Position numbers and translations under genes: made by a program
Origin: Arthrobacter sp. MYb227
GTDB lineage: Bacteria; Actinomycetota; Actinomycetes; Actinomycetales; Micrococcaceae
Direction: 5' to 3'
NCBI RefSeq assembly: GCF_002975435.1
Contig: NZ_PCPT01000002.1
Location: 1-64,000, forward strand
Length of the DNA stretch: 64,000 bases
Shown: positions 34,445 through 58,579 of the stretch, in pieces
How the letters are laid out: every line of letters begins with the position of its first letter
Numbering within the stretch: position 1 is the first letter of the stretch
Notes under the pieces: generated by a model
Told to the model about the DNA's origin: nothing
What the model saw: the letters and a program-made list of their open reading frames with translations, nothing else
Databases searched by the model: none

Positions 34445-35371
34445 CTATACGGCTGCTGTAACTACCGATGATTCGAATGCAGCCAGTGGTTCGGCACCTT
34501 CGTGGGAGTGCCCCCAGTAGCTTTCGGCGGTGATTTCCTCGGAGGTGTAGTACTTCTCATCGACAATCATGCCATCGGTGCCATACTCGATGTCCCAGCC
34601 GCCCGGAGCCCGGACGTAGAAGGAAACCATGTGGTCGTTCGTGTGGCGGCCCAGGGACGCGGTGATGTTAAAGTCCATCTGGCGGACCTTGTCGTAGGCG
34701 CGGCCCACGGTGTCCAGATCTTCGACCTCAACCATCAGGTGCACAAGGCCCGGTGCCTCGCCGTGCGGGGCCGGTCCCATGGCCAGCGAGTGGTGGCGCT
34801 CATTACAGCCGTAGAAGCGGAAACGGGTAGCCGGGCGCTGCGGGCCAAGACGGACGGCGCCGCGCGGCAGGAAGCCGAGTACCTCGGTGTAAAACGAGGT
34901 GGTCTCCTCCATCTTGGTGGTTGGCAGTACCACGTGGCCCATGCCCTGCGCTCCGGTGATGAATTTCTGTGCGTATCCGGTTTTCAGCGGGGTGTGGTCC
35001 ATGCGCGGACCAAAGAAAATTTCCACAGGGGTGCCGGCCGGGTCCGTGAAGGTAATGACCTGTTCTAGACCGCGCTCGTCGTTCTGTTCCTCATTCAGCC
35101 AGGTCACCTCGACGCCGGAGGCCTCTACGTCCTTGGCCACGGCTGCCAGAGCAAAGTGGTCGCGAACTTCCCAGCCCACGGCCACTACACGGTCGGAATC
35201 GCCGGGAAGTACGATGAGGCGAGCCTCGCGCTCATCCATGCGTAGGTAGATTCCATCCGGGTTCGGCCCGATGGTCTCGGCAAATCCTAGTGCCTCAACC
35301 GTCAGCTCGCGCCAGCGTGCGATGTGTTGTGTCTGGACCTTCAGGTAGCCCAGGCCTCGAATGTGAGTCAT
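34445..35371 (-). CDS. hsaC: Extradiol dioxygenase, 3,4-DHSA type (HsaC)
   Basis: Fe(II)-dependent meta-cleavage of the catecholic secosteroid 3,4-DHSA to 4,9-DSHA. It is 308 residues with two vicinal-oxygen-chelate domain pairs. The 2-His-1-carboxylate triad is visible: His146 in GMGHVVLP, His211 in GLVHLMVE and Glu262 in WDIEYGTDG. It resembles biphenyl-2,3-diol 1,2-dioxygenases; the adjacent HsaA and the KstD/Ksh genes favour the steroid substrate. GAGGA lies four to five bases before the ATG at 35371. It is co-directional with the 71-residue protein and HsaA, being last in that unit. Confidence 0.9.
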   Translation of the reverse strand: MTHIRGLGYLKVQTQHIARWRELTVEALGFAETIGPNPDGIYLRMDEREARLIVLPGDSDRVVAVGWEVRDHFALAAVAKDVEASGVEVTWLNEEQNDERGLEQVITFTDPAGTPVEIFFGPRMDHTPLKTGYAQKFITGAQGMGHVVLPTTKMEETTSFYTEVLGFLPRGAVRLGPQRPATRFRFYGCNERHHSLAMGPAPHGEAPGLVHLMVEVEDLDTVGRAYDKVRQMDFNITASLGRHTNDHMVSFYVRAPGGWDIEYGTDGMIVDEKYYTSEEITAESYWGHSHEGAEPLAAFESSVVTAAV

Positions 35372-35746: not shown

Positions 35747-36931
35747 TTAGACCGCGGCTGCCAGGTTTACCGGTGGCTCGAGTCCCAGCTCGGTCAGCAC
35801 CGCTGCATGGTAGGAAGGGCCCGGAACGTGAATCGCGTGAGCGGTACCCATGTGGGCGTCGCGCCAGAAACGCTGGATCGGGTTGTTCATGCGCAAGCCG
35901 TTGCCACCCGAACGGGCAAGAATGGTATCGATTGCTGCGGTAGCGCGCCATGCGGCCTGAATCTGGGTGCGGCGGCCCACGGCACGCTGCTCCATGGAGA
36001 TTTCCTTCCCGGCTGCCACCGTGTCGTAGAGCCGGTTGATGTTATCTAGCAGGGAGACTCGGGAAGCCCGGATTTCTCCGGCAGCCTCACTGACCGCGTA
36101 CATGGTGTACGGATCCTCGACACTCTTGAAGCCATTGATCTGTACGCGACTGCTCTGGTAATCAAGATGTGCCTGCAAAGCGCCTTCGGCGATGCCGACG
36201 ACCGCGGCGGTCAGGCCCTGCGGGAAGATACTGTAGAACGGTAGACGGTGGATCGGTTCGGTCTTGCCGGCATCGCGGGCAACCTTGCCGGAGAACAAAT
36301 CTGTTTGGTCAACGACGCGATATTCGGGAACAAATACATCATTGATGATGACGTCCTTGCTTCCGGTGCCCTTGAGCCCAACCACGTCCCATGAGTCATC
36401 CACGATCGTGTAATCGGAGCGTGGAACTACCACGTGGAGGAAACGCGGAGGCATGATCTTTTCGCCGGAACGGTCTGCGAGGAACGCGCCGAGGATGACC
36501 CAGTCCGCGTGATCGGTGCCGGTAGAGAACTGCCAATGGCCGGTGAACTTATAACCGCCATCAACCGGGGTAGCAACACCCATTGGAGCGTACGGGGAAG
36601 AAACCCAGGTTTCGTTATCCAGGCCCCAAATTTCTTCCTGAAGCCTCGGAGACATGAGTTCAAGTTCCCACGGGTGTACACCCACGACGCCGGCAACCCA
36701 GCCGGCAGAGCCATCGAGGCTTGCCATTTTCATGACCATCTCGGCGAATTCTGCAGGATGCGCGCGGGTTCCGCCGTATTCCGGCGGAGCCAGAAGCTTC
36801 ATAACCCCGGACTGCCGCATGATCTCAACTGACTTCTCACTTAGTTTTCCAAGGCGCTCATTGACCTCGCCTTCGGCACGAAGCTCTGCTCCGCGTTCGG
36901 TGAGCACATCGGTGGTGGCAATGGTGGTCAT
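35747..36931 (-). CDS. hsaA: 3-HSA monooxygenase oxygenase subunit (HsaA)
   Basis: Flavin-dependent hydroxylase of the acyl-CoA-dehydrogenase fold that hydroxylates 3-HSA to the catechol 3,4-DHSA using reduced flavin from HsaB. The 394-residue protein shows VMKLLAPPEYGGTRAHPAEF, SLDGSAGWVAGVVGVHPWEL, YKFTGHWQFSTGTDHADWVI and VVGLKGTGSKDVIINDVFVP, all typical. The start is ambiguous: ATG at 36931, or GTG at 36946 directly after GAGGAA. It is first of the hsaA - small protein - hsaC unit and divergent from hsaD-kshB. Confidence 0.92.
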   Translation of the reverse strand: MTTIATTDVLTERGAELRAEGEVNERLGKLSEKSVEIMRQSGVMKLLAPPEYGGTRAHPAEFAEMVMKMASLDGSAGWVAGVVGVHPWELELMSPRLQEEIWGLDNETWVSSPYAPMGVATPVDGGYKFTGHWQFSTGTDHADWVILGAFLADRSGEKIMPPRFLHVVVPRSDYTIVDDSWDVVGLKGTGSKDVIINDVFVPEYRVVDQTDLFSGKVARDAGKTEPIHRLPFYSIFPQGLTAAVVGIAEGALQAHLDYQSSRVQINGFKSVEDPYTMYAVSEAAGEIRASRVSLLDNINRLYDTVAAGKEISMEQRAVGRRTQIQAAWRATAAIDTILARSGGNGLRMNNPIQRFWRDAHMGTAHAIHVPGPSYHAAVLTELGLEPPVNLAAAV

Positions 36932-37191
36932 GGGGTTATTTCTCACTTCCTCATAAGGCGTCTACACGCCGCTGTTATGTATGAATCTAAATGCCCCACG
37001 CCCTGGGGAGTGATCCATGTCTCACCTATTGGGATCATTGATTTTGGCGTTTGCCAGAGACGTTTCTCGCGCCTATCTGAGTGCGCCCGCCCGCGCATCC
37101 CGGTCATCGGGACCACTGCGGATTCTCGTCGCCTTGCGGATTAAGGTTCACAAAAGACCGTTGAGACCTACGCCACGAGGAGATGCGAGAA
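36932..37191. promoter_or_regulatory. Divergent hsaA / hsaD control region
   Basis: 260 bases without a gene. It contains an imperfect palindrome GAGACGTTTCTC (37058-37069) and the ribosome site GAGGAG (37177-37182) of hsaD. I found no good match to the KstR or KstR2 consensus, so the controlling protein is unknown. Confidence 0.3.
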
Positions 37192-38097
37192 ATGACTGTC
37201 GACCTTCGCCACAAACCGGGCTCATTGCCTAGCCTCAGTGCTGAATCAACCCTGCGTGAGCTGCAGACCGAACGTGGCGTACTTCGCTACCACGAAGCCG
37301 GAGAGGGCCCGCCGTTGGTCTTCCTCCATGGCTCCGGTCCTGGAGTCACGGGATGGAGGAATTTCGGGGGAGTCCTCGAGGCCTTTGCCGAACACTTCCA
37401 CTGCTACATCCTGGAATTCCCCGGCTTTGGGGTGAGTGATCCTACCGATCTTCACCCCATGCCGGCCGGCGTCCAGGCGGTTACCGACCTGCTTGACGGC
37501 CTGGGCCTAGAGCAGGTGGACATCATTGGTAACTCCATGGGCGGGTTTGTTGGGACTCAGTTCTCCATTGAGAACCCAACACGCGTACGCCGGTTTGTCA
37601 CAATTGGCGGTGTGGGACTTGGCATCTTTGGTGCGTTCCCGGCCGAAGGCATCAACCTCTTGGTTGAATTCACCGAGGATCCGACCCGAGAACGACTGAT
37701 CCAGTGGCTGCGCTCCATGGTGTTTGACCCAAAGATGGTCACCGAGGAATTGATTGAGGAGCGCTGGGCTCAGGCAACCGATCCGCAGACGCTAGAAAGC
37801 GCTCGCCGGATGTACAGCAGGGCTGCCATGAAGGCAATGATTGAGGCAACCGCGACCTCCGATGCTCCACCGGCCTGGGCCACCTTGCACCGGCTCAAGG
37901 CCAAGACCCTGATTGTCTGGGGACGAGATGACCGGGTGTCGCCCGTAGATGGTGCTTTGGTGCCGATGCGCACCATCCCAGATGTTGAGTTGCACATTTT
38001 CCCCAAGTGCGGACACTGGGCCATGATCGAGCAAAAAGAAGCCTTTGAAAGCACTGTGTTGAGCTTCCTGCGCCGCGGTGAGGGGACTGCATCATGA
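37192..38097 (+). CDS. hsaD: 4,9-DSHA hydrolase (meta-cleavage product hydrolase, HsaD)
   Basis: An alpha/beta-hydrolase that splits the C-C bond of 4,9-DSHA to give HIP (the CD-ring propionate) and a hydroxyhexadienoate. It has 301 residues from ATG 37192 (the ATG at 37183 abuts the GAGGAG site). The oxyanion-loop motif is FLHGSGPGVTGW, the nucleophile Ser is in IIGNSMGGF (about residue 115), the acid is in IVWGRDDRVSPVDG, and the His is in KCGHWAMIEQ. It overlaps kshB by four bases (ATGA), so the two are coupled. Confidence 0.93.
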   Translation: MTVDLRHKPGSLPSLSAESTLRELQTERGVLRYHEAGEGPPLVFLHGSGPGVTGWRNFGGVLEAFAEHFHCYILEFPGFGVSDPTDLHPMPAGVQAVTDLLDGLGLEQVDIIGNSMGGFVGTQFSIENPTRVRRFVTIGGVGLGIFGAFPAEGINLLVEFTEDPTRERLIQWLRSMVFDPKMVTEELIEERWAQATDPQTLESARRMYSRAAMKAMIEATATSDAPPAWATLHRLKAKTLIVWGRDDRVSPVDGALVPMRTIPDVELHIFPKCGHWAMIEQKEAFESTVLSFLRRGEGTAS

Positions 38098-39149
38098 CAA
38101 GCACGCTGAGCGCCCCACGAATCACCGGATTGCAGGCGCGTGTGGTCGAAGTGATCCGAGAAACCTCGGACGCACACACGCTGATTCTAGAACCAGGGGA
38201 AGGTTTCGAAGAAAACTTCAACTACAAGCCCGGACAGTTTCTGACGTTGCGAATTCCCAGCGATTGGGAAGGTGGAGCGGCTCGCTGCTACTCACTGTGC
38301 AGTTCTCCACAGCAGGACGAGAAGCTCAAGATCACTATCAAGCGCACCCGCGACGGATACGGTTCAAACTGGATTTGTGACAATGTCCAGGCCGGGCATC
38401 TTCTTGAAGTGCTCAAGCCAGCGGGAACCTTCGTACCTAGCTCACTAGATAGCGACTTCCTGCTTTTTGCTGGCGGCAGCGGGGTGACCCCGGTAATGTC
38501 CATCCTGAAGTCGGCGCTCATTGCCGGCTCGGGGCTAGTCACCATGATTTATGCAAACCGTGATGAACAAAATGTCATCTTCAAGGATGAATTAATCGCC
38601 TTGACGAAAGAATACCCGGGACGGGTCAATGTTATTCACTGGCTCGAAAGTGTCCAGGGCATTCCGGACCGTGCTTCGCTCACCGCGTTGGCCAGTCCTT
38701 ATCTGGACCGGGAGGCATTTATCTGCGGCCCGGGTCCGTTCATGGATGCCATTGAGCAGGTATTGCTCGGTGCTGGCATGCCACATGAACGCATTCATAT
38801 TGAACGTTTCAGCTCATTAACCACTGATCCCTTTGCGCCGATCGACATCGAAGTTGACGAGAATGCAACTGATAACAAGGTTGTTGAAGTTCAGATCAAT
38901 GGCGAGACCAGCACCGTGCTTTGGCCGCCAAAGAACAAGCTGCTTGAGGTTCTGCTCAACGCCGGAATCGATGCTCCCTTCTCTTGCCGTGAAGGCTCTT
39001 GTAGCGCCTGTACCTGCATTCTCGTTGAGGGTGAAGTTACCCTGGATCGCAATGAGGTCTTGGAACCGGAAGACCTGGAAGATGGCTACATCCTTGCTTG
39101 TCAGGCCAGACCCGTCAGTGACAAACTGAAGATCACGTACGACGAGTAA
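38094..39149 (+). CDS. kshB: 3-ketosteroid-9alpha-hydroxylase reductase (KshB)
   Basis: Electron-transfer partner of KshA, moving electrons from NAD(P)H via FAD and a plant-type [2Fe-2S] cluster. The 351-residue protein has an FAD-binding domain (about 10-110: ARCYSLCSSPQQD), an NAD domain (about 120-230: LLFAGGSGVTPVMSILK and FICGPGPFMDAIE) and a C-terminal ferredoxin domain. The ferredoxin domain carries Cys ligands in CREGSCSACTCILVEGE and YILACQARP. It is translationally coupled to hsaD. It can serve KshA at 49846; the degenerate KshA-like protein at 39813 lacks the ligands to accept its electrons in the normal way. Confidence 0.93.
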   Translation: MTSTLSAPRITGLQARVVEVIRETSDAHTLILEPGEGFEENFNYKPGQFLTLRIPSDWEGGAARCYSLCSSPQQDEKLKITIKRTRDGYGSNWICDNVQAGHLLEVLKPAGTFVPSSLDSDFLLFAGGSGVTPVMSILKSALIAGSGLVTMIYANRDEQNVIFKDELIALTKEYPGRVNVIHWLESVQGIPDRASLTALASPYLDREAFICGPGPFMDAIEQVLLGAGMPHERIHIERFSSLTTDPFAPIDIEVDENATDNKVVEVQINGETSTVLWPPKNKLLEVLLNAGIDAPFSCREGSCSACTCILVEGEVTLDRNEVLEPEDLEDGYILACQARPVSDKLKITYDE

Positions 39150-39507: not shown

Positions 39508-39813
39508 TTAGCTAACCGTGGGTCGGTCGGGCTCGGTTTCCGAGTCGGTTCGATACACCACGTTGAGCCGCCCGTCGTTAGTTGCTTCGCGGATCTCATG
39601 ACGCAACGATTCGCAGCCAATGAATCTATCCTTGGGCCGCTCGCCACACCTAGTGGCAGGACGCTCTCGGCAGGCCTCGAGGGCTTCTTCCGTCCATTGG
39701 ATGCTGGTTTGCTGCCAGGTTGATTTCCGAACCAGAACGCGTGCTACACACTCTGTGCAGTCCAACGACTGGAGTGGAATTTCAATGAGTCGGGCATCGC
39801 TTTGTTGATCCAT
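39508..39813 (-). CDS. Small four-cysteine protein paired with the KshA-like gene (copy A)
   Basis: A 101-residue protein homologous to the 87-residue one at 49365. The shared core is D-C-x2-E-C (here DCTECVARVLVRK), then T-S-[IV]-Q-W, then an AC (about residue 48), and later a Cys followed by SLR and a GR near the end (CESLRHEIREATNDGRLNV). A CxxC-like pair plus two further cysteines suggests a metal or Fe-S site, though none is proven. The start overlaps the KshA-like stop by one base (TGATG), so it is translated with it. The same kshA-then-small-protein order recurs at 49365-51027, pointing to duplication of the pair. Its function is unknown. Confidence 0.75.
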   Translation of the reverse strand: MDQQSDARLIEIPLQSLDCTECVARVLVRKSTWQQTSIQWTEEALEACRERPATRCGERPKDRFIGCESLRHEIREATNDGRLNVVYRTDSETEPDRPTVS

Positions 39814-40928
39814 CAGACCGGCTGCTTTCCTGTGGTTTTACTGGAGACGGGGGTGCGGGCCAGTGATCGCTTCCACATGTCCAATGGCATTGTCGTATCC
39901 ATTTCGTATTCGAACCGGTCGGTCATCCGCGGCTCAATGTCGGCGGCATCGCAAAAGAACTGCTCATACCAGCGGCGCATCTGATAGACAGGGCCGTCTT
40001 CCTCGCACAGCAAAGGATTATCAACGCGGGTTTTTTGCTGCCAGGGTTCGGCGTCCGTACCAAACCCATGCAGCATGCGGGCCGATTGGTCGGCGGCAAA
40101 TTCTTGTGGATCGCTGCCAAGTTCCTTGCTGTGTTTAACGCTTACCCCGCAGAATAACACCAGGGTGTGTTCGTCAATCGGATAATGGGCGGTAACTAGG
40201 ATGGCGTTGATGTCGTATCGATCATGAACATAATCCAGTTCATCGATCATGAATGAGGGCCCAAAGTATGAAGCTACGGAGTTGGTCCAAATCAGCTTCT
40301 CCGGAGCGGCTTCGGCTGCGTGGTGGGAGTATTCTCTGCGCATGGGTCCATCAAAATATTGGGTGGCAACGTGATTTTCGAAGACGTTCTTAAAGAATGT
40401 CGGACGGTTGGAGCTCTCATAGAAGAACGTTGCGGTATCTACCAAGTGTTCTACAACATCGCGCGGATCGGCCTTGAGAGTTATTTCGTTCCAGACAAGA
40501 TCGGTCCACTGTTCCGGACTGGTGCCGTGGACGCGTGGAATTGACTGGCCCGCACGCGGGGGAGCCCCTTCTGCATCATGCCAGATAAAGAGGAGGCCAT
40601 CTTGCTGGAGTACCGGCCAGCAAGGTGCCAGCGTCGTCGGCATGGAGTGCTCTGCGCCGTGGACGTTGCAGAAAGGCTCGATAGTTTCGCTTTGCGCTCC
40701 GGGATCCTGACCGAGACTTAGAGAGCAACGCTCGTTAGATGCGACGCAGTGACCATCGGCCAAAACCTCGATTGCTAAGTCCTGTCCAAAGGCCCTCAAC
40801 TGGGTCGGATTTTGGGCTAGAAATTTTTGAACTGGTCCCAAGCAGTGCCAACCCCGGGCAAACCGGGTGGGCGCCCCGTTGTTAACGATGTGGCGGATTT
40901 CGTCCGGTCCGGTTGCAACGTTATCCAT
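39813..40928 (-). CDS. Degenerate KshA paralogue lacking iron and Rieske histidines
   Basis: A 371-residue homologue of KshA (49846-51027) alignable along nearly its whole length: TRFARGWHCLG, LLFIWHDAEGAPP, PTFFKNVFENHVATQY, EEDGPVYQMRRWYEQFF. The Rieske motif C-x-H...C-x2-H reads C68-S-L70...C87-N-V-H90, so the first His is lost. The two mononuclear-iron histidines of KshA (HFFYVH) are replaced in TFFYES (Thr167, Ser172). The Asp region EDGPVY is kept. The frame is intact, so this is not simple decay. It cannot be an ordinary Rieske oxygenase; a regulatory, binding or heteromeric partner role for KshA is possible (inference). The ATG at 40928 follows GAAGGG by ten bases. Confidence 0.85.
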   Translation of the reverse strand: MDNVATGPDEIRHIVNNGAPTRFARGWHCLGPVQKFLAQNPTQLRAFGQDLAIEVLADGHCVASNERCSLSLGQDPGAQSETIEPFCNVHGAEHSMPTTLAPCWPVLQQDGLLFIWHDAEGAPPRAGQSIPRVHGTSPEQWTDLVWNEITLKADPRDVVEHLVDTATFFYESSNRPTFFKNVFENHVATQYFDGPMRREYSHHAAEAAPEKLIWTNSVASYFGPSFMIDELDYVHDRYDINAILVTAHYPIDEHTLVLFCGVSVKHSKELGSDPQEFAADQSARMLHGFGTDAEPWQQKTRVDNPLLCEEDGPVYQMRRWYEQFFCDAADIEPRMTDRFEYEMDTTMPLDMWKRSLARTPVSSKTTGKQPV

Positions 40929-41155
40929 GCGGATTTTGCCCTTCCCAAAGCCGCTACGCGGCACCCTGTTGATCACATTCCCGAACACACATTTAGCCAC
41001 AGGAGTGTGACGTGCCGCACGTCCTGTCTCGCTGTGTGGGATAAGTAGGTTTCTTCTCGAGGAAAATCCTGCTGGGTGGGACACGGAGCAAGCCAAATTC
41101 CCTGGTTCTGATTGTGTATCCCACACATGTCTGTGCAAGAAGTAAAGGAGATGGA
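40929..41155. promoter_or_regulatory. Divergent control region of the KshA-like gene and kstD with palindromes
   Basis: It holds a perfect palindrome GACGTGC-C-GCACGTC (41009-41023). It also holds a widely spaced perfect inverted repeat TGTGTGGGATA (41033-41043) / TATCCCACACA (41117-41127). A related GGTGGGACA lies at 41074-41082. These are candidate operators for a steroid-responsive regulator; which one is unknown. Confidence 0.45.
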
Positions 41156-42706
41156 ATGTCCAAAAATCAGGTTTGGGACGGTGAATTTGACGTCATCGTT
41201 GTCGGCTCCGGTGCAGGTGCCATGGCGGGCGCCTATAGTGCCGCGAAGCGGGGTCTGAAGACCGTCGTGGTGGAAAAGACCAAGCTGCTTGGCGGTGCTT
41301 CGGCTTATGCCGGTGCTTCCTGCTGGTTGCCGGCCTCTCAGGTCCAGGAGCGATTTGCGGTGGAGGACTCCTCGACCGAGGCGCTGACCTACCTCACCTC
41401 GCTCTTGGGTGACCATGAAGTTGAACGCCGCGAAGCCTTCGTGAAAACAGCACCGGAGTTTGTTGCCGAATTCGAAGAAGACCCGGCCATTGAGTTCAAG
41501 TTCATTGCTTTCCCAGACTACTTTGCCGGGCCTGGTCGTAAGGACGTGGGGCGTTCGGTTATGCCGGAGGATCTGCCGCGTGAGCAGATCGGCGACCTGG
41601 CCGATATTGTGCGTCCGCGTGTCGAAGAAGACCGCCACGGCAATGGACACGAGGATGGCCCGCTGACCGCCGGCCAGGCGTTGATTGGCCGTCTGCTGCT
41701 TGCCTACACCAACACCGGCAATGGTGCCGTGTGTTTGGAAACGGCATTGACCGAACTTATTACCGAAAACGACAAGGTCGTGGGCATCGTGGTCCAGGGT
41801 CCAGAAGGCGTTCAGCGTCTACACGCCGAAGTTGGTGTGATCCTCGGGGCCGGAGGGTTCGAGGCAAACAATGAAATGCGCCAGGAGTTTGGGGCACCGG
41901 GCGCTGCAGAATGGACCATGGCGCCGGATGGCGCGAACATCGGCACCGGCATCCGGGCCGCGGAAGCCGTTGGTGGCGTGGTTGATTTGATGGATGAAGC
42001 CTGGTGGGCTCCGGGAAGCGTGCAGCCCTCCGGCCAGACAGCCTTTGCCTTGGGTTTCCGTGGCGGCATCTGGGTAGACACCAATGGTCAGCGCTTTGCC
42101 AACGAGTCCCTTCCCTACGATCAAATGGGCCGTGTTCTAGCCAACGCTGCGGCGCAGCGTATTCCTTCATGGTTTATTTTCGATTCCAAATTCGGTGGCG
42201 ATATGCCGGGCATCCAGCGGCCCATGAATACCAGCCCCGAGGAGCACCTTGCCGCAGGTACCTGGGTGAAGGCCGATACACTTGCCGAGCTTTCCGAGCT
42301 GACTAATCTTCCTGCCGATGCACTGAATGCTAGCGTTGAGCGTTTTAACGGGTTTGCTGCCTCCGGCGTCGACGTCGACTTTCACCGTGGTGAGGACGCC
42401 TACGACCTGTTCTTTGCCGATCCAAGTTACGGACCTAACCCGGCCTTGGTAGCTATCGAGCAGGGTCCATACTATGCGGCTCGCATGGTGCTGGCCGATC
42501 TAGGAACTAAGGGCGGGTTGCGCGTGGACAAGGACTCTCGCGTGCTGACCAAGGACGGTAACGCCATCGAAGGTCTCTACGCGGTAGGTAATACCAGCGC
42601 TTCCTTCTCCGGCCGTTTCTACCCAGGTCCCGGTACTCCGCTGGGCTCGGCCATGGTTTTTGCATACCGTGCGGTCAAGAGCATGATTCCTGCAAAGGTT
42701 AGCTAA
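41156..42706 (+). CDS. kstD: 3-ketosteroid delta1-dehydrogenase (KstD)
   Basis: FAD enzyme introducing the 1,2-double bond in the steroid A-ring. It is 516 residues with the N-terminal Rossmann motif VIVVGSGAGAMAGAYSAA. Regions corresponding to the catalytic tyrosines are FPDYFAGPGRKDV (Tyr about 122), NESLPYDQMGRVL, and the C-terminal GRFYPGPGTPLGSAMVFAYRA with Tyr and Gly. The ATG at 41156 has AAAGGAG five bases upstream; the frame open from 41114 lacks a ribosome site. It is divergent from the KshA-like gene and ends at a very strong terminator. Other FAD-dependent delta-dehydrogenases (KsdI/Kst4D-like) are the main alternative. Confidence 0.9.
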   Translation: MSKNQVWDGEFDVIVVGSGAGAMAGAYSAAKRGLKTVVVEKTKLLGGASAYAGASCWLPASQVQERFAVEDSSTEALTYLTSLLGDHEVERREAFVKTAPEFVAEFEEDPAIEFKFIAFPDYFAGPGRKDVGRSVMPEDLPREQIGDLADIVRPRVEEDRHGNGHEDGPLTAGQALIGRLLLAYTNTGNGAVCLETALTELITENDKVVGIVVQGPEGVQRLHAEVGVILGAGGFEANNEMRQEFGAPGAAEWTMAPDGANIGTGIRAAEAVGGVVDLMDEAWWAPGSVQPSGQTAFALGFRGGIWVDTNGQRFANESLPYDQMGRVLANAAAQRIPSWFIFDSKFGGDMPGIQRPMNTSPEEHLAAGTWVKADTLAELSELTNLPADALNASVERFNGFAASGVDVDFHRGEDAYDLFFADPSYGPNPALVAIEQGPYYAARMVLADLGTKGGLRVDKDSRVLTKDGNAIEGLYAVGNTSASFSGRFYPGPGTPLGSAMVFAYRAVKSMIPAKVS

Positions 42707-45663: not shown

Positions 45664-46251
45664 CTAGGCGATTAGCCCGTCAAGGAAAAGTGCAGTGCAG
45701 TCATCGCCGAGCTTTTCTCGCGAGTAGGTCGGTGAAGGTGCGAACCAGCGAGCGGTAAGCCACAAAGAATCGCGGAGCAAACGGTGTACAACATTTGCGT
45801 CTAGATCCTTCTTGAACAAGCCGCTGGCAATGCCGCTTTCAATGACATCGACCCATATTTTGGCAATTTCGCTGCTGATGGCACGGGCACCGGTAGTCTT
45901 CGGCAACTTCTGAATGTAGGCTACTTCGTTTTGATAAATCTGCGTCGCGTACGGGTAGTCGCGAATAATTTCTAGGGTGACGCGCATCAGGCGCTCCAGG
46001 GTATCGCGTGGCCCGACGCCCTCCTCGAGGGCAGCTCGATAGCGCCCCTGTAGATCGTCGAGGAACCCTTTGAGGATTTCCTCGACCATTTCATCTTTGG
46101 AGACAAAGTGGTGGTAGAGGCTGCCCGAAAGCATTCCCACGGAGGCGGAGATTTCTCGAACCGAGGTCGATCCGATGCCCTGTTCCGCGAAGAGACGTGC
46201 AGCGTTATCTAAGATGTCTGTCCGCCGGTCCGGTGAGGTCTTTTCGGCCAT
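45664..46251 (-). CDS. kstR2: TetR-family repressor, KstR2-like
   Basis: A 195-residue regulator with a TetR N-terminal helix-turn-helix: RTDILDNAARLFAEQGIGST, SVREISASVGMLSGSLYHHF. The C-terminal ligand-binding domain (about 55-195) is the size of KstR2, which senses HIP-CoA and represses CD-ring genes. I take the ATG at 46251; the frame extends to 46335 without a better start. A near-consensus KstR2-type box (ACCAAGCGCTAGCT) lies 80 bases upstream at 46331-46344 and would allow autorepression. It is divergent from the epoxide-hydrolase-like gene. KstR2 identity is inferred from family and context. Confidence 0.78.
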   Translation of the reverse strand: MAEKTSPDRRTDILDNAARLFAEQGIGSTSVREISASVGMLSGSLYHHFVSKDEMVEEILKGFLDDLQGRYRAALEEGVGPRDTLERLMRVTLEIIRDYPYATQIYQNEVAYIQKLPKTTGARAISSEIAKIWVDVIESGIASGLFKKDLDANVVHRLLRDSLWLTARWFAPSPTYSREKLGDDCTALFLDGLIA

Positions 46252-46330
46252 GATCACTCTTTTCGGGTTTGGTTTAGCGAGCGCACCAAGTGTGGTTTGC
46301 TCACGTAGCAATGATCTATCGTAGCAACAA

Positions 46331-46344
46331 ACCAAGCGCTAGCT
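46331..46344. promoter_or_regulatory. KstR2-type box upstream of kstR2
   Basis: ACCAAGCGCTAGCT compared with the known A-N-CAAG-N2-CTTG-N-T consensus: one mismatch in the second half-site. Confidence 0.45.
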
Positions 46345-46465
46345 ATGTTGGTGATGAGGATTTGTGCGTGGAACAGGGACCGACAGCGCCACTAGTAACT
46401 GAGTTTAGCCCTTTACACAGGAGCAAGTAGGTGCCGTACGGAGCGCCGAAACGGCTCATATGGTG

Positions 46466-46484
46466 CATCCCGTCTAGCGGGATG
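46466..46484. promoter_or_regulatory. Palindrome CATCCCG-N5-CGGGATG upstream of the epoxide-hydrolase-like gene
   Basis: Perfect seven-base arms (46466-46472 and 46478-46484) 126 bases before the TTG start at 46610. Candidate operator; its core resembles the GGGATG words in other steroid-gene leaders. Confidence 0.35.
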
Positions 46485-46609
46485 GAACACGAAACCTCCG
46501 GGTTCCTGCGCTGTAATTAGGCGAAAATGAGGCATCCTGTGGGCACCCTGAGCAGCCTTTCGGAGGCCTGCGGCGGTCATGCAAATTTGCCATCCCGAGG
46601 AGGAAAAAA

Positions 46610-47626
46610 TTGAGAAATTGGACCCATCACCAGGCCCGGATCAATGGGTTGGATATGCACTATGTGGAAGAAGGCGAGGGGCCACTGGTGGTTCTGCTGC
46701 ACGGATTTCCACACACATGGTTTAGCTGGCGGCATCAGATTACTGCCCTGGCCGAGGCCGGCTACCGGGTGGTGGCACCGGATCTGCGGGGTATGGGGCA
46801 GACCGAAGCACCCCTGCGGAGCGCAGATTATCGGTGCGATGAAATCACCAAGGATGTCTGTGCTTTGCTTGACCATCTGGGTGAATCCGAAGCTGTACTT
46901 TCGGGTATGGATTTTGGCATGTTTGTCGCATACGATATGGCCTGCGAACACCCCGAACGGGTACGCGGGCTATTGGGGCTGCAGTACTCGGGATTTCCGG
47001 CCTATGACCGTTTGCCATCGGAAGTGGAACGCGAGCGAGGGCGGGAAAACTTCAACCATATGTCCTACTATGCGCAGGATCCTGCGGGAGCACGTGCCGA
47101 CTATGAGGCGCATCCGCGGGAAATCATCACCAAAATCTTCAGTATCCTCTCCTCCACAGGGGACTTTTCTCGGCTTGATGCGCACGCACCGGGCACCGCA
47201 TACCGTGATGCCCTGCCGGAGCCACCGCTGCTTCCTTGGTCATGGATTGATGAATGGGAGATCGAGTCCTATGTTTTGGACTATTCACGCAGTGGTTTTC
47301 GGGGCGGGATCAACTGGTACCTGGCAGCTGACAACAATTGGGAATACCGCAGGCAACGCGGCACTAACATGACGGCCGTTCCCATGTACTTCACGGCCTC
47401 TGAGGCCGATGTTCAGCTGGCCGAACAGTATGGGGCGGGGCTTGCCGCGCAACTTGCCCAAAGTCATGCTGACGTTCGGGCATTGCGCACGATTCCGGGT
47501 GGTGGTTACCTGCTGGCGATGGAACGGGCCAAGGAAGTCAGCGAAACCTTCATTGAGTTCTTGCGTGAGCTTGATTCGTCTCATCCGGCGGGAACTTCTG
47601 AGCTTACGAACGCTACTGCACGATAG
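46610..47626 (+). CDS. Epoxide hydrolase-family alpha/beta hydrolase lacking the catalytic His
   Basis: A 338-residue protein of the epoxide hydrolase / haloacid dehalogenase-like alpha/beta fold. It has the oxyanion motif VVLLHGFPHTWFSWRHQ (about 27-43) and the nucleophile elbow with Asp in LSGMDFGMFVAYD (about residue 101). The conserved C-terminal G-H-F/W-L motif reads GGGYLLAMERAKEV, so Tyr stands where the catalytic His is expected. The start is TTG at 46610 with a perfect AGGAGG (46598-46603) six bases upstream. It is divergent from kstR2 and followed by a strong terminator. Either the mechanism differs or the protein binds without hydrolysing. Confidence 0.82.
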   Translation: MRNWTHHQARINGLDMHYVEEGEGPLVVLLHGFPHTWFSWRHQITALAEAGYRVVAPDLRGMGQTEAPLRSADYRCDEITKDVCALLDHLGESEAVLSGMDFGMFVAYDMACEHPERVRGLLGLQYSGFPAYDRLPSEVERERGRENFNHMSYYAQDPAGARADYEAHPREIITKIFSILSSTGDFSRLDAHAPGTAYRDALPEPPLLPWSWIDEWEIESYVLDYSRSGFRGGINWYLAADNNWEYRRQRGTNMTAVPMYFTASEADVQLAEQYGAGLAAQLAQSHADVRALRTIPGGGYLLAMERAKEVSETFIEFLRELDSSHPAGTSELTNATAR

Positions 47627-47649
47627 TTCGGTCTTGACCCAGCTAAAGC

Positions 47650-47712
47650 TGTAGCCGGTGTCGGGTAGCCCCTTCAAAAGTGAAGGAGCGAAACGACACC
47701 GGCTACATTGTT
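47650..47712 (+). terminator. Terminator of the epoxide-hydrolase-like gene
   Basis: TGTAGCCGGTGTCG (47650-47663) pairs perfectly with CGACACCGGCTACA (47694-47707), followed by TTGTTTTG. Confidence 0.8.
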
Positions 47713-47792
47713 TTGCTGTTGCGGAATTTATGGCCCCAAGCTCCCGGGGAGTCTAGGCAAGAAAAAGCGTGAGCACCTGGCCCTTGTTAAAC

Positions 47793-49076
47793 TTAGACAG
47801 GGGTGACCGAGAGACGGTATTCCTCTGGGACCGAATAGGCTGAGACTGAGTCGTCAAGCGGTGAGAAGTGGCTGTCGGGTTCCAGCACACAGTGTGTGCG
47901 GGCATAGACGGTGTACATGCACTTATTGCAATGAACGCAGCGGCTAGTTACGTTTCCGTCTTCCTTGATTCGGTTGATCAAGTCCGGTTCACGAAGCAAA
48001 CTACGGCCCATGGCAATAAAATCAAAGCCTTCCTGCATTCCCGTGTTCATATGTTCGAGATTGTTGATGCCACCGAGCAAGATCAATTTGGTGTTCTTCA
48101 TGACCGGAACAAATTGACGGGCAGCCTCAAGCATGTACAGGTCTTTATAAGGGAAGTTGCCCAGCGCGAACTTACCAAATAGCCGGACACCGGTCTTCAT
48201 GGGTTCCTTCACGACCGCGGCGAAATCTGCGACTGGGACATCCCCACGGAACAGGTACATCTGACGAATGATTGAGGAGCCCTGGGTTAACTCGAGGGCA
48301 TCCAGCGTGCGGTCCTGATCCAAGAGCTGCGCGGTACGGATGGATTCGGTCAGCCAGATGCTTCCCGGCAGTCCATCATCCATACTGATTTTGGCAATTA
48401 CGGCGACCTTGTTACCCACAACTTCGCGCACTCGTTGGGCAATTTCACGCACGAGGCGTGAGCGATTCTCGATGCTTCCGCCATATTCGTCCTTGCGGCG
48501 GTTGAGCAGCGGGCTGAGGAATGAGCTGGGTAGATAGTTGTGGCCAAAATGTAGCTCTACCGCATCGAATCCTGCTTCGACGGCGATCTTGGCGGCCTCA
48601 CCGAATTGGTCGATGACCATGGGAATTTCCTCGCGTCGCATGGCGCGGCAGTATTCCATTGACGAGGGGTTAACGAAGCGGCTGGGACCCATGGAGGTGA
48701 CCCCGGTGATTTTCTTCGAAGCGACCATTCCCGCATGACCGAGTTGGGCAGAAATAGCGCCACCTTCGGAATGAACCGCATCGGTGAGTCGGCGCAGACC
48801 CGGCAGAGCCTTTTCGCTCATCAGGATTTGGCCCGGAGCCGAAGCGCCTTCGGGGGAGACGCAGCAGTAGGCAACGGTGGTCAGGCCCGCCCCACCACGG
48901 ACAAAATCGAGGTGGAAGTCAATCAGATCGTCGGTGACGAGTCCCTCGGGAGAACGGCCCTCGGAGGTGGCCGCCTTGATAATGCGGTTGCGTAGCTGCA
49001 CTGGGCCCAGCGCTATCGGTGCAAACAGGTCTGGATGCGGCTGCAAGGCCTGAGGCTGGGTACTTGTCAGGGACAT
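47793..49076 (-). CDS. NADH:flavin oxidoreductase (Old Yellow Enzyme / dienoyl-CoA reductase barrel) with Cys cluster
   Basis: An FMN-binding TIM-barrel oxidoreductase of 427 residues. Barrel landmarks are LFAPIALGPVQLRNRIIKAA, AISAQLGHAGM, GFDAVELHFGHNYLPSSFLS and FDFIAMGRSLLREPDL. After the barrel, SRCVHCNKCMYTVYARTHC gives C-x2-C-x2-C-x9-C, reminiscent of the 4Fe-4S site of 2,4-dienoyl-CoA reductases. The protein ends about 45 residues later, without their FAD/NAD domain. I start at ATG 49076 (AAAGGA upstream); the frame extends to 49280 without a better start. It is last in the kshA - small Cys protein - OYE row. Reduction of a steroid-derived enone or enoyl-CoA is plausible. Confidence 0.85.
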   Translation of the reverse strand: MSLTSTQPQALQPHPDLFAPIALGPVQLRNRIIKAATSEGRSPEGLVTDDLIDFHLDFVRGGAGLTTVAYCCVSPEGASAPGQILMSEKALPGLRRLTDAVHSEGGAISAQLGHAGMVASKKITGVTSMGPSRFVNPSSMEYCRAMRREEIPMVIDQFGEAAKIAVEAGFDAVELHFGHNYLPSSFLSPLLNRRKDEYGGSIENRSRLVREIAQRVREVVGNKVAVIAKISMDDGLPGSIWLTESIRTAQLLDQDRTLDALELTQGSSIIRQMYLFRGDVPVADFAAVVKEPMKTGVRLFGKFALGNFPYKDLYMLEAARQFVPVMKNTKLILLGGINNLEHMNTGMQEGFDFIAMGRSLLREPDLINRIKEDGNVTSRCVHCNKCMYTVYARTHCVLEPDSHFSPLDDSVSAYSVPEEYRLSVTPV

Positions 49077-49364
49077 GGAGTTCCTTTCACGAAAATGGGC
49101 CGCAGCGAAGATACGGGTCTTCGTAGTTGGACGGCTTACCTGGGTTTCGAATCCGTATAGGGGACAGCTGTAATTCAAGAGTCGCAAGCGCTGTAGAGTC
49201 TGCCCGGCACTAGCTCGGGCAGCACAATATTGAGTTTCAATCGATGCGGTGGGAAAGCACTGAGGGACCCACGTCAGCATGTAGCTGTGATGACGGGATC
49301 CCTCGGGGTGATTCTTCTGCTGGATGTGGCCGAGGGACAGTGATCCGTTGGAAGCAGAGAATAT

Positions 49365-49628
49365 TTAGCCAAGCTGGCCGATGACGGGTTCCACCCGGCC
49401 ACCGATTTCGATGCGCCCCTGACGCACTGCCTCATCAATGGTGCTGCGCAGTGAGGAGCAAGACAGCCCGGTGGTGCCACACAATCCGCCTTCACCGTTA
49501 GCATTTGCCTGTGAGATCCGAGGGCATGCAGAGGCCGAATCGCTGAGCCACTGAACACTGGTGTGTGGGACTGAGAATTTCTCTACCAAGACGGCGGTGC
49601 CACACTCGTGACAATCGATCGGTTGCAT
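49365..49628 (-). CDS. Small four-cysteine protein paired with kshA (copy B)
   Basis: An 87-residue protein starting at ATG 49628, five bases after AGGAG. Its sequence (DCHECGTAVLVEK, TSVQW, ASAC, LSCSSLRSTIDEAVRQGRIE) aligns with copy A at 39508, conserving the DCxEC pair, the VLV-x-K stretch, the TS-[IV]-QW block, AC, C-x-SLR and GR. No known domain is recognised; four shared cysteines hint at a metal or Fe-S site or a redox role. It sits 217 bases downstream of kshA on the same strand and 288 bases upstream of the OYE gene. The recurring neighbourhood suggests it assists KshA, for example in cluster assembly or electron transfer (inference). Confidence 0.8.
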   Translation of the reverse strand: MQPIDCHECGTAVLVEKFSVPHTSVQWLSDSASACPRISQANANGEGGLCGTTGLSCSSLRSTIDEAVRQGRIEIGGRVEPVIGQLG

Positions 49629-49754
49629 TCTTGCTCCTAGAAGTTCTTGAACCTGGCTGCTACGGAATTTTGTGGGACAGCAGCGCAGGGAATGTGTAGC
49701 TATTGCGTTTGATCCGGCAGAGCCCGGATGGATTTAGTGTTTGACTACCGGTGC

Positions 49755-49802
49755 GCCGACGCTCCTCAGGAATTTCTCGAAGAATTCTCGGGGAGCGCCG
49801 GC
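49755..49802 (-). terminator. Hairpin after kshA
   Basis: GCCGACGCTCC (49755-49765) pairs with GGAGCGCCGGC (49792-49802) with one mismatch, and a nested GAATT (49769-49774 region) / AATTC continues the stem. Confidence 0.45.
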
Positions 49803-49845
49803 ATGGTCATCTCGGACCCGAATGAACAGGTTCCGGATTCGGTGG

Positions 49846-51027
49846 TTACTCGGCTGCTGAGGCAGCCTTTTCGATGTTGTCTTGAACCTCGACGGCCCAG
49901 CTTTCCAAGGCCTTGGTCGTATCCACCTCGAACTCGAAGCGTGCAACCATGTCCTCGGTGATGTCCTCGACATCAACGTAGAACTGCTCGTACCAGCGGC
50001 GAAGCTGGTAAACAGGGCCGTCTTCGGCCGTCAACAGAGGGTTCTCGATGCGGGTCTTGTGTTTCCAGATGGCCACGTCCTGCTTGAACTGGGTCTCCAC
50101 ACCCTCGGTGAACAAAGCAGCCATTTCGGCGGCCTTTTCCGGAGTCACACCGTCAACGGTCTTAACGCTGGTACCGAACTGGAGCACGAAGGAATCCGGA
50201 GAGATCGGGTAGTGGCAGTTAACCAGCTTGGTTTCAACCGTGGTGTCACCGGCGACGGTGTAGACGGTATCAAGCATGAAGGACGGACCATAGTAGGCCG
50301 CATCGGAGATAGTTTCGGAATCCGGGAGGTCAAACTGAACGCCGGTCTTGATATCTTCGCGGCCGGTTGAACGCATGTGCTGGGCCGCTACGTGACCTTC
50401 AAAAATATTCTTGAAGAACTGTGGCATCTGGTAGTGCACGTAGAAGAAGTGAGCCATGTCGACAACGTTGTCGACGATCTCGCGGCAGTTTGAACCCTTC
50501 ACCACGAAGGTGTTCCAGGTCCATTCGCTCCACTGATCGGTGCCGTAGCCTGGGATTTCCGGGATCGTGATGTCGGCCGGTGGCGGGTTGCCCTGCGGGT
50601 CATTCCAGATAAAGAACAGACCATTCTGCTCCATGGTCTCCCAACGTGCGGTGCGGGCACGCATTGGTACACGCTGCGCGTATGGCACGGCCTTGCACTT
50701 GCCGTCGCCACCCCAACGCCAGTCATGGAATGGGCAGGAGATCTCGTCACCCTTGACGAGTCCCTGCGAGAGATCTCCACCCATGTGGCGGCAGAATGCG
50801 TCGAGCGCGTTGAGCTTGCCCTTGGTGTCTGCCCACACGACGATCTTGGTGCCAAAAACCTCAATCGAGTGCGGCTTGCCATCACGGAAGGTCTTGGCCA
50901 AGCCCAAGCAGTGCCAGCCACGTGCATAACGCGTGGGGTTCTTGCCCGAATCGATCAGACGTACTTCGTCGGAATCATCAAGATCGATCTCAACGACGTC
51001 CTTCTGGGCAGTCATTTCGGTGGTCAT
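49846..51027 (-). CDS. kshA: 3-ketosteroid-9alpha-hydroxylase oxygenase (KshA)
   Basis: Rieske non-haem iron monooxygenase that hydroxylates C9 of 3-ketosteroids and opens ring B together with KstD. It is 393 residues. The Rieske cluster ligands are Cys79-R-His81 and Cys98-P-F-His101, and the mononuclear iron ligands are His193 and His198 in DMAHFFYVHYQ plus the Asp in AEDGPVYQL. Everything needed for activity is present. GGAG precedes the ATG at 51027 by five bases. Electrons come from KshB. It is followed on the same strand by the small Cys protein and an OYE gene, and preceded by an SDR gene 150 bases upstream. Confidence 0.95.
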   Translation of the reverse strand: MTTEMTAQKDVVEIDLDDSDEVRLIDSGKNPTRYARGWHCLGLAKTFRDGKPHSIEVFGTKIVVWADTKGKLNALDAFCRHMGGDLSQGLVKGDEISCPFHDWRWGGDGKCKAVPYAQRVPMRARTARWETMEQNGLFFIWNDPQGNPPPADITIPEIPGYGTDQWSEWTWNTFVVKGSNCREIVDNVVDMAHFFYVHYQMPQFFKNIFEGHVAAQHMRSTGREDIKTGVQFDLPDSETISDAAYYGPSFMLDTVYTVAGDTTVETKLVNCHYPISPDSFVLQFGTSVKTVDGVTPEKAAEMAALFTEGVETQFKQDVAIWKHKTRIENPLLTAEDGPVYQLRRWYEQFYVDVEDITEDMVARFEFEVDTTKALESWAVEVQDNIEKAASAAE

Positions 51028-51177
51028 GACTTCTCCAATCTATGGTGGTTTGTTTTATTTTTTCGTTGCTTTGGTGCGAGTGAATGTTTTGGGTCCAGCT
51101 GATGGCTTCAACGGAATGAGAAAACGGTTCGTAAGTTGCAAGTCACTTCACGGTGCTTGATACGTTTGGCGGCGTGC

Positions 51178-51933
51178 TTAGCGCATCAGTACTTGACCGC
51201 CATCGACCGGAAGCGAATGCCCGGTGATGTAACGCGAGCTTTCAGAGCAGAGGAATACCACGGCCGGCCCAATGTCGGTTTCGCTGTCTCCTAGCCGACC
51301 AAGCGGAATGGTAGTCATGTACTCGGCAGATTCTTCCGGGTTGATCTTGGCCCAGTCTTCGAGCGCCGGTGAGTTTGCCAAGGGCAGGATTGCATTGACG
51401 CGAATACCATCTGCGGCCCATTCGCAGGCTGCGGTTCGGGTTAGTACGCGAATAGCTTCCTTTGCTGCCGCATAGCCGCCATAGCCGGACGGGTTCCACC
51501 GCACGCCAGCTGCCGAGCCGAGGTTGACGACGGTTCCATGGCCCCGCATATGCGGGTGGGAAGCGCGCATGAGTCGCCAGGTGGCCAGCGGCCCCGACTC
51601 CATGCCGCGGAAGTATTCCATTTCCGAGAGGTCCAACAGTTCGCCATGAACCGTGCTCTGCGCATTGTTTACCAGGATTGAGAGGCTGCCGAAATGTTCA
51701 ACAACGTCCGTCACGAGCTGTTCGATCTGTTCTGGAATCAGCACGTCGCACGTGAATGCATGTGCCTCACCGCCTTCACTACGAATCTCCGCAGCGACGT
51801 CTTCTATTTTTTGCGAGGTCCGACCGACTATGGCCAAGCGAGCTCCCTCAGCAGCGAGGGCGCGGGCAATGCCACGTCCCACTCCTTGGCCCGCGCCGGT
51901 TACCAGCGCCACGCGGCCTGTTAGTACACCCAT
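51178..51933 (-). CDS. SDR-family oxidoreductase
   Basis: A 251-residue classical SDR: TGAGQGVGRGIARALA (residues 12-27) binds NAD(P), ILVNNAQST replaces the usual NNAG with NNAQ, and YAAAKEAIRVLTR has the Tyr-x3-Lys active site (from about residue 154). The C-terminal YITGHSLPVDGGQVLMR is standard. The ribosome site AAAGGGAG precedes the ATG. It heads the kshA row and may be co-transcribed with kshA. A hydroxysteroid dehydrogenase or a CD-ring beta-oxidation dehydrogenase is possible; the substrate is not readable. Confidence 0.85.
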   Translation of the reverse strand: MGVLTGRVALVTGAGQGVGRGIARALAAEGARLAIVGRTSQKIEDVAAEIRSEGGEAHAFTCDVLIPEQIEQLVTDVVEHFGSLSILVNNAQSTVHGELLDLSEMEYFRGMESGPLATWRLMRASHPHMRGHGTVVNLGSAAGVRWNPSGYGGYAAAKEAIRVLTRTAACEWAADGIRVNAILPLANSPALEDWAKINPEESAEYMTTIPLGRLGDSETDIGPAVVFLCSESSRYITGHSLPVDGGQVLMR

Positions 51934-52325
51934 GTTTAGTGCTCCCTTTCGTCAAGGTATTAGGACACAGTTTGCACAGTAACGATGGGCAAAATCTTTG
52001 TTCATCCCACTCTCCGGGACTCCAAAGCCATGCTAGATGTGATCCGCAACATACTATTTTCGGACCGTTTGGCGGGAGAAAACACACTCCTTGTTGACAT
52101 CACTAGTAAGCGGTAATAACAACCGGTTTGTCGTGATGCAGCAAGACGAGAATCCCGCAAAAACAGTGGGTCTAACCACGACTGCTTCGAGTAGATCGCC
52201 TGCAGAACTTGTAGAACTGCGCTCGAGAGTAGTCCAAATACATGTTTTTGAAGGACCAAGAATCTTCCCCTGGAACTGCAGGACAAATCTTGGATCCAAT
52301 GATTTTTTAGCAGATAGGACACACC
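51934..52325. other. Divergent region between SDR and MFS genes
   Basis: No supported gene. The minus strand carries GTGGGATGAA (52001-52010) about 70 bases upstream of the SDR start, a word shared with other steroid-gene leaders. Overlapping open frames here have no ribosome sites. Confidence 0.35.
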
Positions 52326-53792: not shown

Positions 53793-54187
53793 TAGATTTG
53801 CTAGTGCCGGTGGTGAATGTCGTTGCCGTCGGTATTGGCTTGTAGGGAACCACCTCGCACTAGTGCTGGGGGGCCCTCGAATAACGCACAGCACGGAGAA
53901 ATCTGTAGCTGAGCATCTGGGGCGCGAGGTTTAGAGCCATCCCCTCGCGCCACCACGTTACTGGGCCATCTGATAGCTGGGCTCGCCCAGTGACGTGGGC
54001 TAGAAAGCACCAACGCGTAGTGCGTCCCGTCCTTGGAAGGACGCCTATGCTGCCGGTGTTGTCCGTTGCCGGAGCCGCTGCGAACGCGCGAAACCGATTC
54101 GGACTGCTTCTTCTGTACGCATCAAATCAGCACCTGCATTTTGGGGACTGCTTTTCACTCATGCACCAATAACAGATTGGAAACACA
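53793..54187. other. Intergenic between the tandem MFS genes
   Basis: 395 bases with no gene I can support. Two short palindromic patches (around 53940-54000 with CTGGGC/GCCCAG) may mark a terminator of copy 1 and a promoter of copy 2; nothing conclusive. Confidence 0.3.
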
Positions 54188-55654: not shown

Positions 55655-55754
55655 GGCGCCGGACTAGGGGGGTGCTAGCTGGGGAGCTCTTTTCCGTTGG
55701 TAGCTTGCATACGTAGCGGAAGATAGAACTTCATAGTATTACCTCTAGAACACC

Positions 55755-55792
55755 TAGGAGGGCTCCTGCGACAATGCGCGGGAGCCCTCCTA
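55755..55792 (+). terminator. Terminator after the second MFS gene
   Basis: TAGGAGGGCTCC (55755-55766) pairs perfectly with GGAGCCCTCCTA (55781-55792). Confidence 0.75.
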
Positions 55793-55867
55793 TGATGTAA
55801 AAACTGTCTATTTTTGTAATCTCGGTGAAGAGCTGAAGGAAGACTGAAATCCTCTTAGCTTCCTCGG

Positions 55868-57052: not shown

Positions 57053-57075
57053 GGAGCTTTCCTTTGGCTAGCTGG

Positions 57076-57096
57076 GTTTAAAGTTTAGACAGGCAC
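57076..57096. promoter_or_regulatory. Imperfect palindrome upstream of thiolase
   Basis: TTTAGACAGG-C-ACTGCCTAAA reads as an inverted repeat with few mismatches, 24 bases before the TTG start. Candidate operator for an unidentified regulator. Confidence 0.35.
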
Positions 57097-57313
57097 TGCC
57101 TAAATGCAGAGCCCAGAACATAGAGCGCTATCCGTTGTATCGATAGACCGCCCTTCTTATCTGGGCACGCTACGAAATTGGCGGGGATTGGTGTGTGGGT
57201 GATCCCGCTGTTTGGGATTCTTCCCCCGTAACTGGCCATGTCCGGTGACTATTGAAACTAAACATCAGTAGGTGTCATTGCCCTGCGAGGGGAATACAAA
57301 AGACCGGAATTAC

Positions 57314-58527: not shown

Positions 58528-58579
58528 CAGCTGGTCTATGAAGGGTTCCTGAGCCAATCCTGATAAGGCTGAGCTCAGT

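Follow-up and report, generated by a model that had tools for sequence, protein, structure and literature searches.

Pseudoenzymes retained beside an active homologue form a general class; among the literature matches listed, none was an example from the Rieske oxygenases and none was a paper on a dead KshA. The closest described system for the locus studied here is KshA itself, the oxygenase of 3-ketosteroid 9alpha-hydroxylase, with structures from R. rhodochrous (PDB 4QDC and 4QDF) and M. tuberculosis (2ZYL). As described in PMC4064121, Rieske oxygenases pass electrons from the Rieske cluster of one subunit to the iron of the next, the KshA catalytic domain is a helix-grip domain of the START superfamily, and the pocket of M. 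tuberculosis KshA comprises V176, Q204, Y232, M238, N240, N257, F301 and W308. A second comparison is offered by NdmC of the caffeine NdmCDE complex, a Rieske-family protein that lost its own cluster and has a helper protein; it is described as a monooxygenase with non-heme iron whose additional Rieske cluster is carried by NdmD (PMC4408171).

We analysed a window of 64,000 nucleotides (the whole stretch of DNA considered here) that contains a KshA homologue lacking metal ligands, termed pseudo-KshA, and a second, ligand-complete KshA, termed KshA2. The features referred to below are as follows.

34445–35371, minus strand, hsaC-like extradiol dioxygenase (domain match)
35747–36946, minus strand, hsaA-like flavin monooxygenase (Acyl-CoA_dh_2)
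37183–38097, plus strand, hsaD-like alpha/beta hydrolase (domain match)
38094–39149, plus strand, kshB-like reductase (Fer2, FAD and NAD domains; named from domains and pathway order)
39508–39813, minus strand, four-cysteine (Cys4) protein, 101 aa, with C19, C22, C48 and C67 conserved
39813–40928, minus strand, pseudo-KshA (type A), 371 aa, KshA homologue (ligand alignment and Pfam)
41027–41041, no strand, TCTCGCTGTGTGGGA, operator-like palindrome TCCC-N7-GGGA with one mismatch (conservation by alignment)
41067–41081, no strand, TCCTGCTGGGTGGGA, second operator-like copy with one mismatch (motif scan)
41156–42706, plus strand, kstD-like 3-ketosteroid dehydrogenase, divergent neighbour of pseudo-kshA (FAD_binding_2, synteny)
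45664–46335, minus strand, TetR-family regulator (domain match)
49365–49628, minus strand, Cys4 homologue of 87 aa downstream of KshA2, homologous to 39508–39813
49846–51027, minus strand, KshA2, second KshA with all metal ligands intact (Pfam and ligand alignment)

The kstD-like gene was listed as an ORF at 41114–42706; its start at 41156 is a judgement, and its name comes from the first-pass annotation and pathway order. The names hsaD-like, hsaA-like and hsaC-like are our assumption, based on pathway order.

The first-pass annotation had placed a KshA paralogue with an intact scaffold and stripped metal sites at 39813–40928, with no strand stated. On the plus strand this interval contained nine stops; on the minus strand it was open for 371 codons from an ATG at 40928, confirming the open frame. 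Pfam analysis of pseudo-KshA gave KshA_C at 233.5 bits (E 3.4e-69; cut-off 23.3), whereas the Rieske domain fell below its cut-off (13.7 vs 20.3); in KshA2 both domains were above cut-off. The best solved relative of pseudo-KshA by sequence was chain B of 4QDF; the title of this R. rhodochrous entry names both KshA5 and KshA1. Alignment bore out the reported substitutions: C68-S69-L70 stands in place of C-x-H, with Leu70 for the first Rieske His, and the iron-His positions are T167 and S172. C87 and H90 were retained, as were the third iron ligand (D292, equivalent to Asp304 in M. tuberculosis KshA) and the inter-subunit electron-transfer Asp (D164, equivalent to Asp178). The second Rieske loop carried a 14-residue deletion. 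All seven metal ligands were present in each of the 111 other full-length KshAs checked.

A search of 395 genomes of the family revealed a strong KshA match in 11; a twelfth genome (G182) had a weak match of 95 residues only and was not counted as having KshA. Pseudo-KshA occurred together with KshA2 in six of the 11, and within the genomes searched it was found only in that company (6/6); the other five had one canonical KshA at the same syntenic place. The carriers were the window genome (G000), G050, G022 and G111 in one genus of the Micrococcaceae and G023 and G051 in another. Whole-genus searches gave KshA matches in 4/15, 2/18 and, for the third genus, 5/29 genomes; the steroid cluster is patchily distributed across these genera. 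At order level 3/396 genomes matched, two of them in the same family and one weakly, and a plasmid search returned 35 records, each below 60% identity. In the class sample 69/394 genomes had a KshA match. The 99 loci examined there (29 + 70), with a second G833 row of identical scores and weak rows (about E 1e-11 and above) excluded, gave 101 ORFs, of which five fragments shorter than 300 aa were removed (three pieces of L149; L150 and L151 at contig edges). None of the remaining 96 full-length class-wide KshAs was ligand-less. These 96, the five third-genus KshAs, the six KshA2 proteins and four of the nine canonical loci from the contig search make up the 111 canonical KshAs; L005, L007, L008, L011 and L012 are absent from the ligand count and the tree. 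At L149 (G1067), kshA is fragmented over several frames and adjoins a Cys4 frame that is open; this looks like true decay.

The six pseudo-KshAs fell into two types. Type A comprises the window protein and an orthologue in Arthrobacter sp. AQ5-05 (L003, taken to be G050 and counted once), which has 79% identity to the window protein, the same ligand losses and the same position beside kstD. The first-pass annotation had proposed a search for just such an orthologue, and four further-reduced ones were found at the same place. A sequencing error or frameshift was ruled out by the identical residues in another species' assembly. Type B comprises these four proteins, from two genera; they are 348 aa long, have 37–42% identity to the window protein, and lack the stretch with all four Rieske ligands. 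For two of the four, the KshA_C scores were 135.8 and 122.7 bits. The Rieske ligands are C-H-C-H in 111/111 canonical KshAs, C-L-C-H in type A and deleted in type B. The 2-His-1-carboxylate site reads T, S, D in type A and N/D, T, A in type B, where the column of the Asp depends on the alignment; both iron His are absent from 6/6 pseudo-KshAs. The equivalent of Asp178 is retained in type A (2/2) and lost in type B (4/4). The loss is graded: type A is without one Rieske ligand and both iron His, type B without the Rieske cluster region and, by alignment, without any iron ligand.

We scored 103 positions that are invariant in at least 95% of the 111 canonical KshAs, leaving aside those at which the window protein has a gap. 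Retained in all six pseudo-KshAs were 8/9 of them in residues 1–31, 2/25 in 32–105, 4/5 in 106–150, 6/19 in 151–215, 10/13 in 216–270 and 14/21 in 311–371. The value of 0/11 in residues 271–310 is due to type B, which retained none; type A retained nine. In residues 32–105 the window protein by itself kept 5/25. Its AlphaFold model (12 rows) had a mean pLDDT of 63.6, with most of the catalytic sheet at about 69–88, residues 161–200 at about 50–63 (161–180 about 50) and residues 67–101 below 50. Foldseek ranked KshA structures first (TM 0.62–0.65, rmsd about 9); the predicted fold is a medium-confidence model and is taken as supportive only. The scaffold described as intact is mainly kept in the catalytic half, but the Rieske half is not intact, in view of its deletion, its few retained invariants and its low pLDDT.

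Selection was estimated in three pairs of pseudo-KshAs (G000-G050, G022-G111 and G023-G051, in this order throughout). Maximum-likelihood dN/dS was 0.171, 0.201 and 0.074, and likelihood-ratio tests (LRT) against dN/dS = 1 gave 118.7, 55.1 and 91.1. When the proteins were split at residue 105 (type A) or 80 (type B), the N part gave 0.340, 0.642 and 0.201 and the C part 0.111, 0.138 and 0.042; the value of 0.642 was indistinguishable from 1 (LRT 0.9), and the bootstrap was likewise compatible with 1. A counting method with bootstrap gave 0.334, 0.737 and 0.244 for the N part and 0.090, 0.213 and 0.082 for the C part. By the same method, three canonical pairs of the third genus gave 0.110–0.211, with N and C parts alike. 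The steroid-pocket half is under much the same constraint as in active-type orthologues, whereas the redox half has been released. Ordinary decay of pseudo-KshA was ruled out by dN/dS with bootstrap intervals, except for the N part of G022-G111.

As in conserved pseudoenzymes generally, catalytic residues are lost in the orthologues, the frame is intact and selection is purifying. The window gene is very probably a conserved pseudo-oxygenase, as the first-pass annotation had suggested; orthologues at the same place, dN/dS of 0.07–0.20 (well below 1, in answer to the check it had proposed) and an open, coupled operon all favour this view. Catalytic activity has probably been lost, judging from the missing ligands. 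The protein is unlikely to act in redox chemistry as known Rieske oxygenases do, because ligands are missing at both ends in type A and the cluster region is absent from type B.

The proposed coupling to a downstream gene was verified. The stop of pseudo-kshA overlaps the start of the 101-aa Cys4 ORF by TGATG, with an embedded Shine-Dalgarno-like GGAAAG. A TRATG overlap (TGATG or TAATG) between (pseudo-)kshA and the Cys4 gene was present in 11/11 genomes, with a Shine-Dalgarno-like sequence in the last codons. The DNA at 39822–39830 (minus strand), GGAAAGCAG, near the end of pseudo-kshA, was identical in 6/6 genomes; it encodes the GKQ tail, whose codons GGA AAG CAG are invariant at the DNA level. 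This tail is probably the Shine-Dalgarno site of the coupled gene, not a protein motif. Such invariance, expected of an embedded Shine-Dalgarno site, would also suit a slowly dying relic, its frame kept only to drive translation of the Cys4 protein, and the eroding Rieske half, including the G022-G111 N part, would agree with this. The C part, however, has dN/dS of 0.042–0.138 and by counting resembles active-type orthologues, and there was no frameshift in the six genomes, whereas kshA of G1067 is broken into pieces. We consider a relic very improbable.

Homologues of the Cys4 protein lie 3′ of 75/96 sampled class-wide kshA genes (L053–L148), and also of KshA2; at the 21 class-wide loci without one, 1.06–1.52 kb of downstream sequence was searched. 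In the three pairs, dN/dS of the Cys4 protein was 0.065, 0.651 and 0.259 (100, 96 and 90 codons); selection was uneven, and the value of 0.651 was indistinguishable from 1 (LRT 1.1). The 101-aa protein matched no Pfam or NCBIfam family at cut-off, and its weak AlphaFold model (pLDDT 63.9) gave no fold match at E 0.001. No PDB relative was found for the KshA2-linked homologue. From the gene number only, we suspect that the Cys4 protein corresponds to Rv3527, beside M. tuberculosis kshA (Rv3526). Rv3527 is listed as hypothetical in PMC6429209. A purely metal-loading or electron-donating role, reducing the metals of KshA, is unlikely for the Cys4 protein, given that it has been retained next to a KshA lacking metal sites.

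Synteny and phylogeny agreed on the origin of pseudo-KshA. The gene order hsaC-like, hsaA-like, hsaD-like, kshB-like, Cys4 gene, (pseudo-)kshA and divergent kstD-like was found in 5/6 pseudo-KshA genomes; in G050 the contig ends past the Cys4 gene, with the kshB side unseen. Pseudo-kshA adjoins kstD divergently in all six. The five third-genus genomes have the same order with a canonical kshA encoding all ligands, and a second kshA was not found in them. In an IQ-TREE tree of 117 proteins, with supports read after re-rooting on a Pseudomonas protein, the six pseudo-KshAs grouped together (UFBoot 100), with the canonical KshA of G278 as their sister (UFBoot 100), inside a clade holding the five third-genus KshAs (99). 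Long branches may exaggerate this grouping; synteny agrees with it independently. Because of these two lines of evidence, we read pseudo-KshA as the positional orthologue of the active-type KshA of the third genus, that is, as the old locus gone dead. KshA2 was remote from pseudo-KshA in the tree, at a poorly supported position (UFBoot 53), and the two are about 40% identical. A recent duplication of KshA2 was ruled out by tree and synteny. The term paralogue used in the first-pass annotation is thus right only in part. The region 45664–61573 contains KshA2 with two FMN oxidoreductases, an SDR, three MFS transporters, a thiolase and a SnoaL-like protein. This block may be a later acquisition, because no second kshA match was found in the third genus. 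The oxygenase at work in these genomes is presumably KshA2.

The constant company of KshA2 raises the question of whether the dead subunits are built into the KshA2 trimer and so modulate how active or stable it is, or which substrates it takes. KshA C-terminal features help trimer formation, as described in PMC4064121, and the C-terminal block of pseudo-KshA is well kept in all six (the 14/21 noted above); type A also retains the inter-subunit Asp. In type B, however, loss of this Asp and of the Rieske region would make KshA-like head-to-tail contacts and electron hand-over impossible. KshA2, moreover, is only about 40% identical to its would-be partner and has a lower dN in the three pairs (0.009, 0.020 and 0.016 vs 0.128, 0.065 and 0.023), although the third gap is small. 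For the G023-G051 pair of KshA2, 423 codons entered the comparison, some of which probably belong to an N-terminal over-extension; the counting method puts its dN/dS at 0.181, above the 0.124 of pseudo-KshA and contrary to the general trend. A mixed oligomer is, in our view, unlikely. The heterotrimer with KshA put forward in the first-pass annotation is weakened in any electron-sharing form, since type B has lost both elements and is still kept at the locus; for type B at least, a heterotrimer that transfers electrons is unlikely. The protein may instead be a sensor, a carrier or an inhibitor.

Comparison of the steroid pocket showed which residues had been kept. The pocket Q, Y and M (window Gln190, Tyr221 and Met227) were retained in 6/6 pseudo-KshAs. 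Type A also retained F and W, with N240 changed to D, V176 to L and N257 to T; Asp at the N240 position also occurs in 43/111 canonical KshAs. Type B kept V176 in two of four members and lost F289 and W296. Its pocket may be open or different, because of these two losses and the 0/11 invariants in residues 271–310. Asn257 is present in 110/111 canonical KshAs and is Thr (window T246) in 6/6 pseudo-KshAs, and because of this shared change the ligand may differ from that of KshA. D160-N161 (window numbering), present in essentially all 111 canonical KshAs (1.00), is E-H in 6/6. The pseudo-specific invariants include E160, H161, T246, R354 and R358; codons at E160, T246, R354 and R358 showed synonymous change, and that of H161 was identical in all six. 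Shared across types of such low identity, these changes look kept, not drifting.

A remodelled pocket with Glu160, His161 and Thr246 could serve a new non-redox steroid enzyme, such as an isomerase or hydratase. The E-H pair is common to all six although type B is only 37–42% identical to the window protein, E160 and T246 changed codons synonymously, and window residue 162 is the counterpart of pocket residue Val176. On the other hand, the three residues could have a structural role, types A and B are strongly different in the pocket around them, and the single H161 codon gives no synonymous evidence. We regard a new enzyme as improbable.

The first-pass annotation had also described a divergent promoter region with palindromes. 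Inverted repeats were present in the divergent kstD intergenic region of the window; a sigma-70 scan found no promoter-like site in the kstD/pseudo-kshA intergenic region, its three hits lying inside a gene. Exact TCCC-N7-GGGA occurred in the kstD/(pseudo-)kshA intergenic region in 10/11 genomes; the window instead has the two one-mismatch copies listed above. Exact copies align at the 41027 site in G050, G022, G111, G023, G051, G223 and G299. Elsewhere in the window, exact copies lie between main genes at 37098, 46468, 52005 and 57203 and inside genes at 14409 and 38255; that at 46468 is intergenic, upstream of the TetR gene. The motif was not enriched in the window, either as GTCCC-N7-GGGAC (2 found vs 3.4 expected) or as TCCC-N7-GGGA with one mismatch (45 vs 37.7). 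It is an operator-like candidate by position and conservation, and it differs from the KstR motif. Because this palindrome is shared by the intergenic region common to kstD and the region upstream of the TetR gene, pseudo-KshA might be a steroid-responsive regulator or sensor that acts on transcription or on the TetR regulator. No DNA-binding domain was found, however, among the Pfam matches of pseudo-KshA or the Cys4 protein, and Cys4 homologues also stand beside ordinary kshA genes; such a regulator has little probability.

Set against the described systems, pseudo-KshA has its best match in fold and sequence, through KshA_C, in KshA, and shares with it a cluster of kstD-, kshB- and hsa-like genes and the downstream Cys4 protein; unlike KshA, it is expected neither to transfer electrons nor to bind iron in the established manner. 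It resembles NdmC in having lost its cluster, but its iron ligands are gone too, with neither iron His left in any member, and the retained iron site of NdmC is not seen. The retained domain, which keeps part of the steroid pocket, is of the type described for START-superfamily helix-grip lipid-binding proteins (PMC4064121); unlike these, pseudo-KshA derives from an oxygenase and is still recognised by KshA_C. Lacking ligands, under purifying selection and next to an intact homologue, it fits the general pseudoenzyme class.

The reading that we tentatively prefer, at a little under even chances, is that pseudo-KshA is a non-redox steroid-binding accessory protein working with the Cys4 protein; binding, complex and accessory role are all putative. 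We place it ahead of the mixed oligomer, which in turn precedes the new enzyme and the regulator, with the relic last. An active-type KshA would have lost catalysis in a lineage also carrying the distantly related KshA2 in the same cluster. Selection has kept the KshA_C helix-grip (START-superfamily) domain with Gln190, Tyr221, Met227 and the C-terminal helices, and also, close to where the iron site was, a new Glu160-His161 pair and Thr246. Pseudo-KshA would bind a 3-ketosteroid intermediate with no conversion and, together with its coupled Cys4 partner, may serve ring cleavage between KstD, KshB and KshA2 as a carrier, buffer or sensor.

If so, and here we are slightly more reserved, a Rieske oxygenase may have been turned stepwise, within one family, into a non-redox protein devoted to steroid binding: its redox half would have been broken and then excised, the START-like half would have stayed constrained as in active-type orthologues, and the product would form a unit with the Cys4 partner. 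An active-type orthologue, a site-dead form and a Rieske-excised form constitute a natural series at one locus, which makes testable both the passage from oxygenase to binding protein and the function of the KshA catalytic domain beyond chemistry. The locus also brings to light an uncharacterised Cys4 protein next to the majority of the sampled actinobacterial kshA genes. For annotation and for strains used in steroid biotechnology, domain searches could call such copies active KshA.
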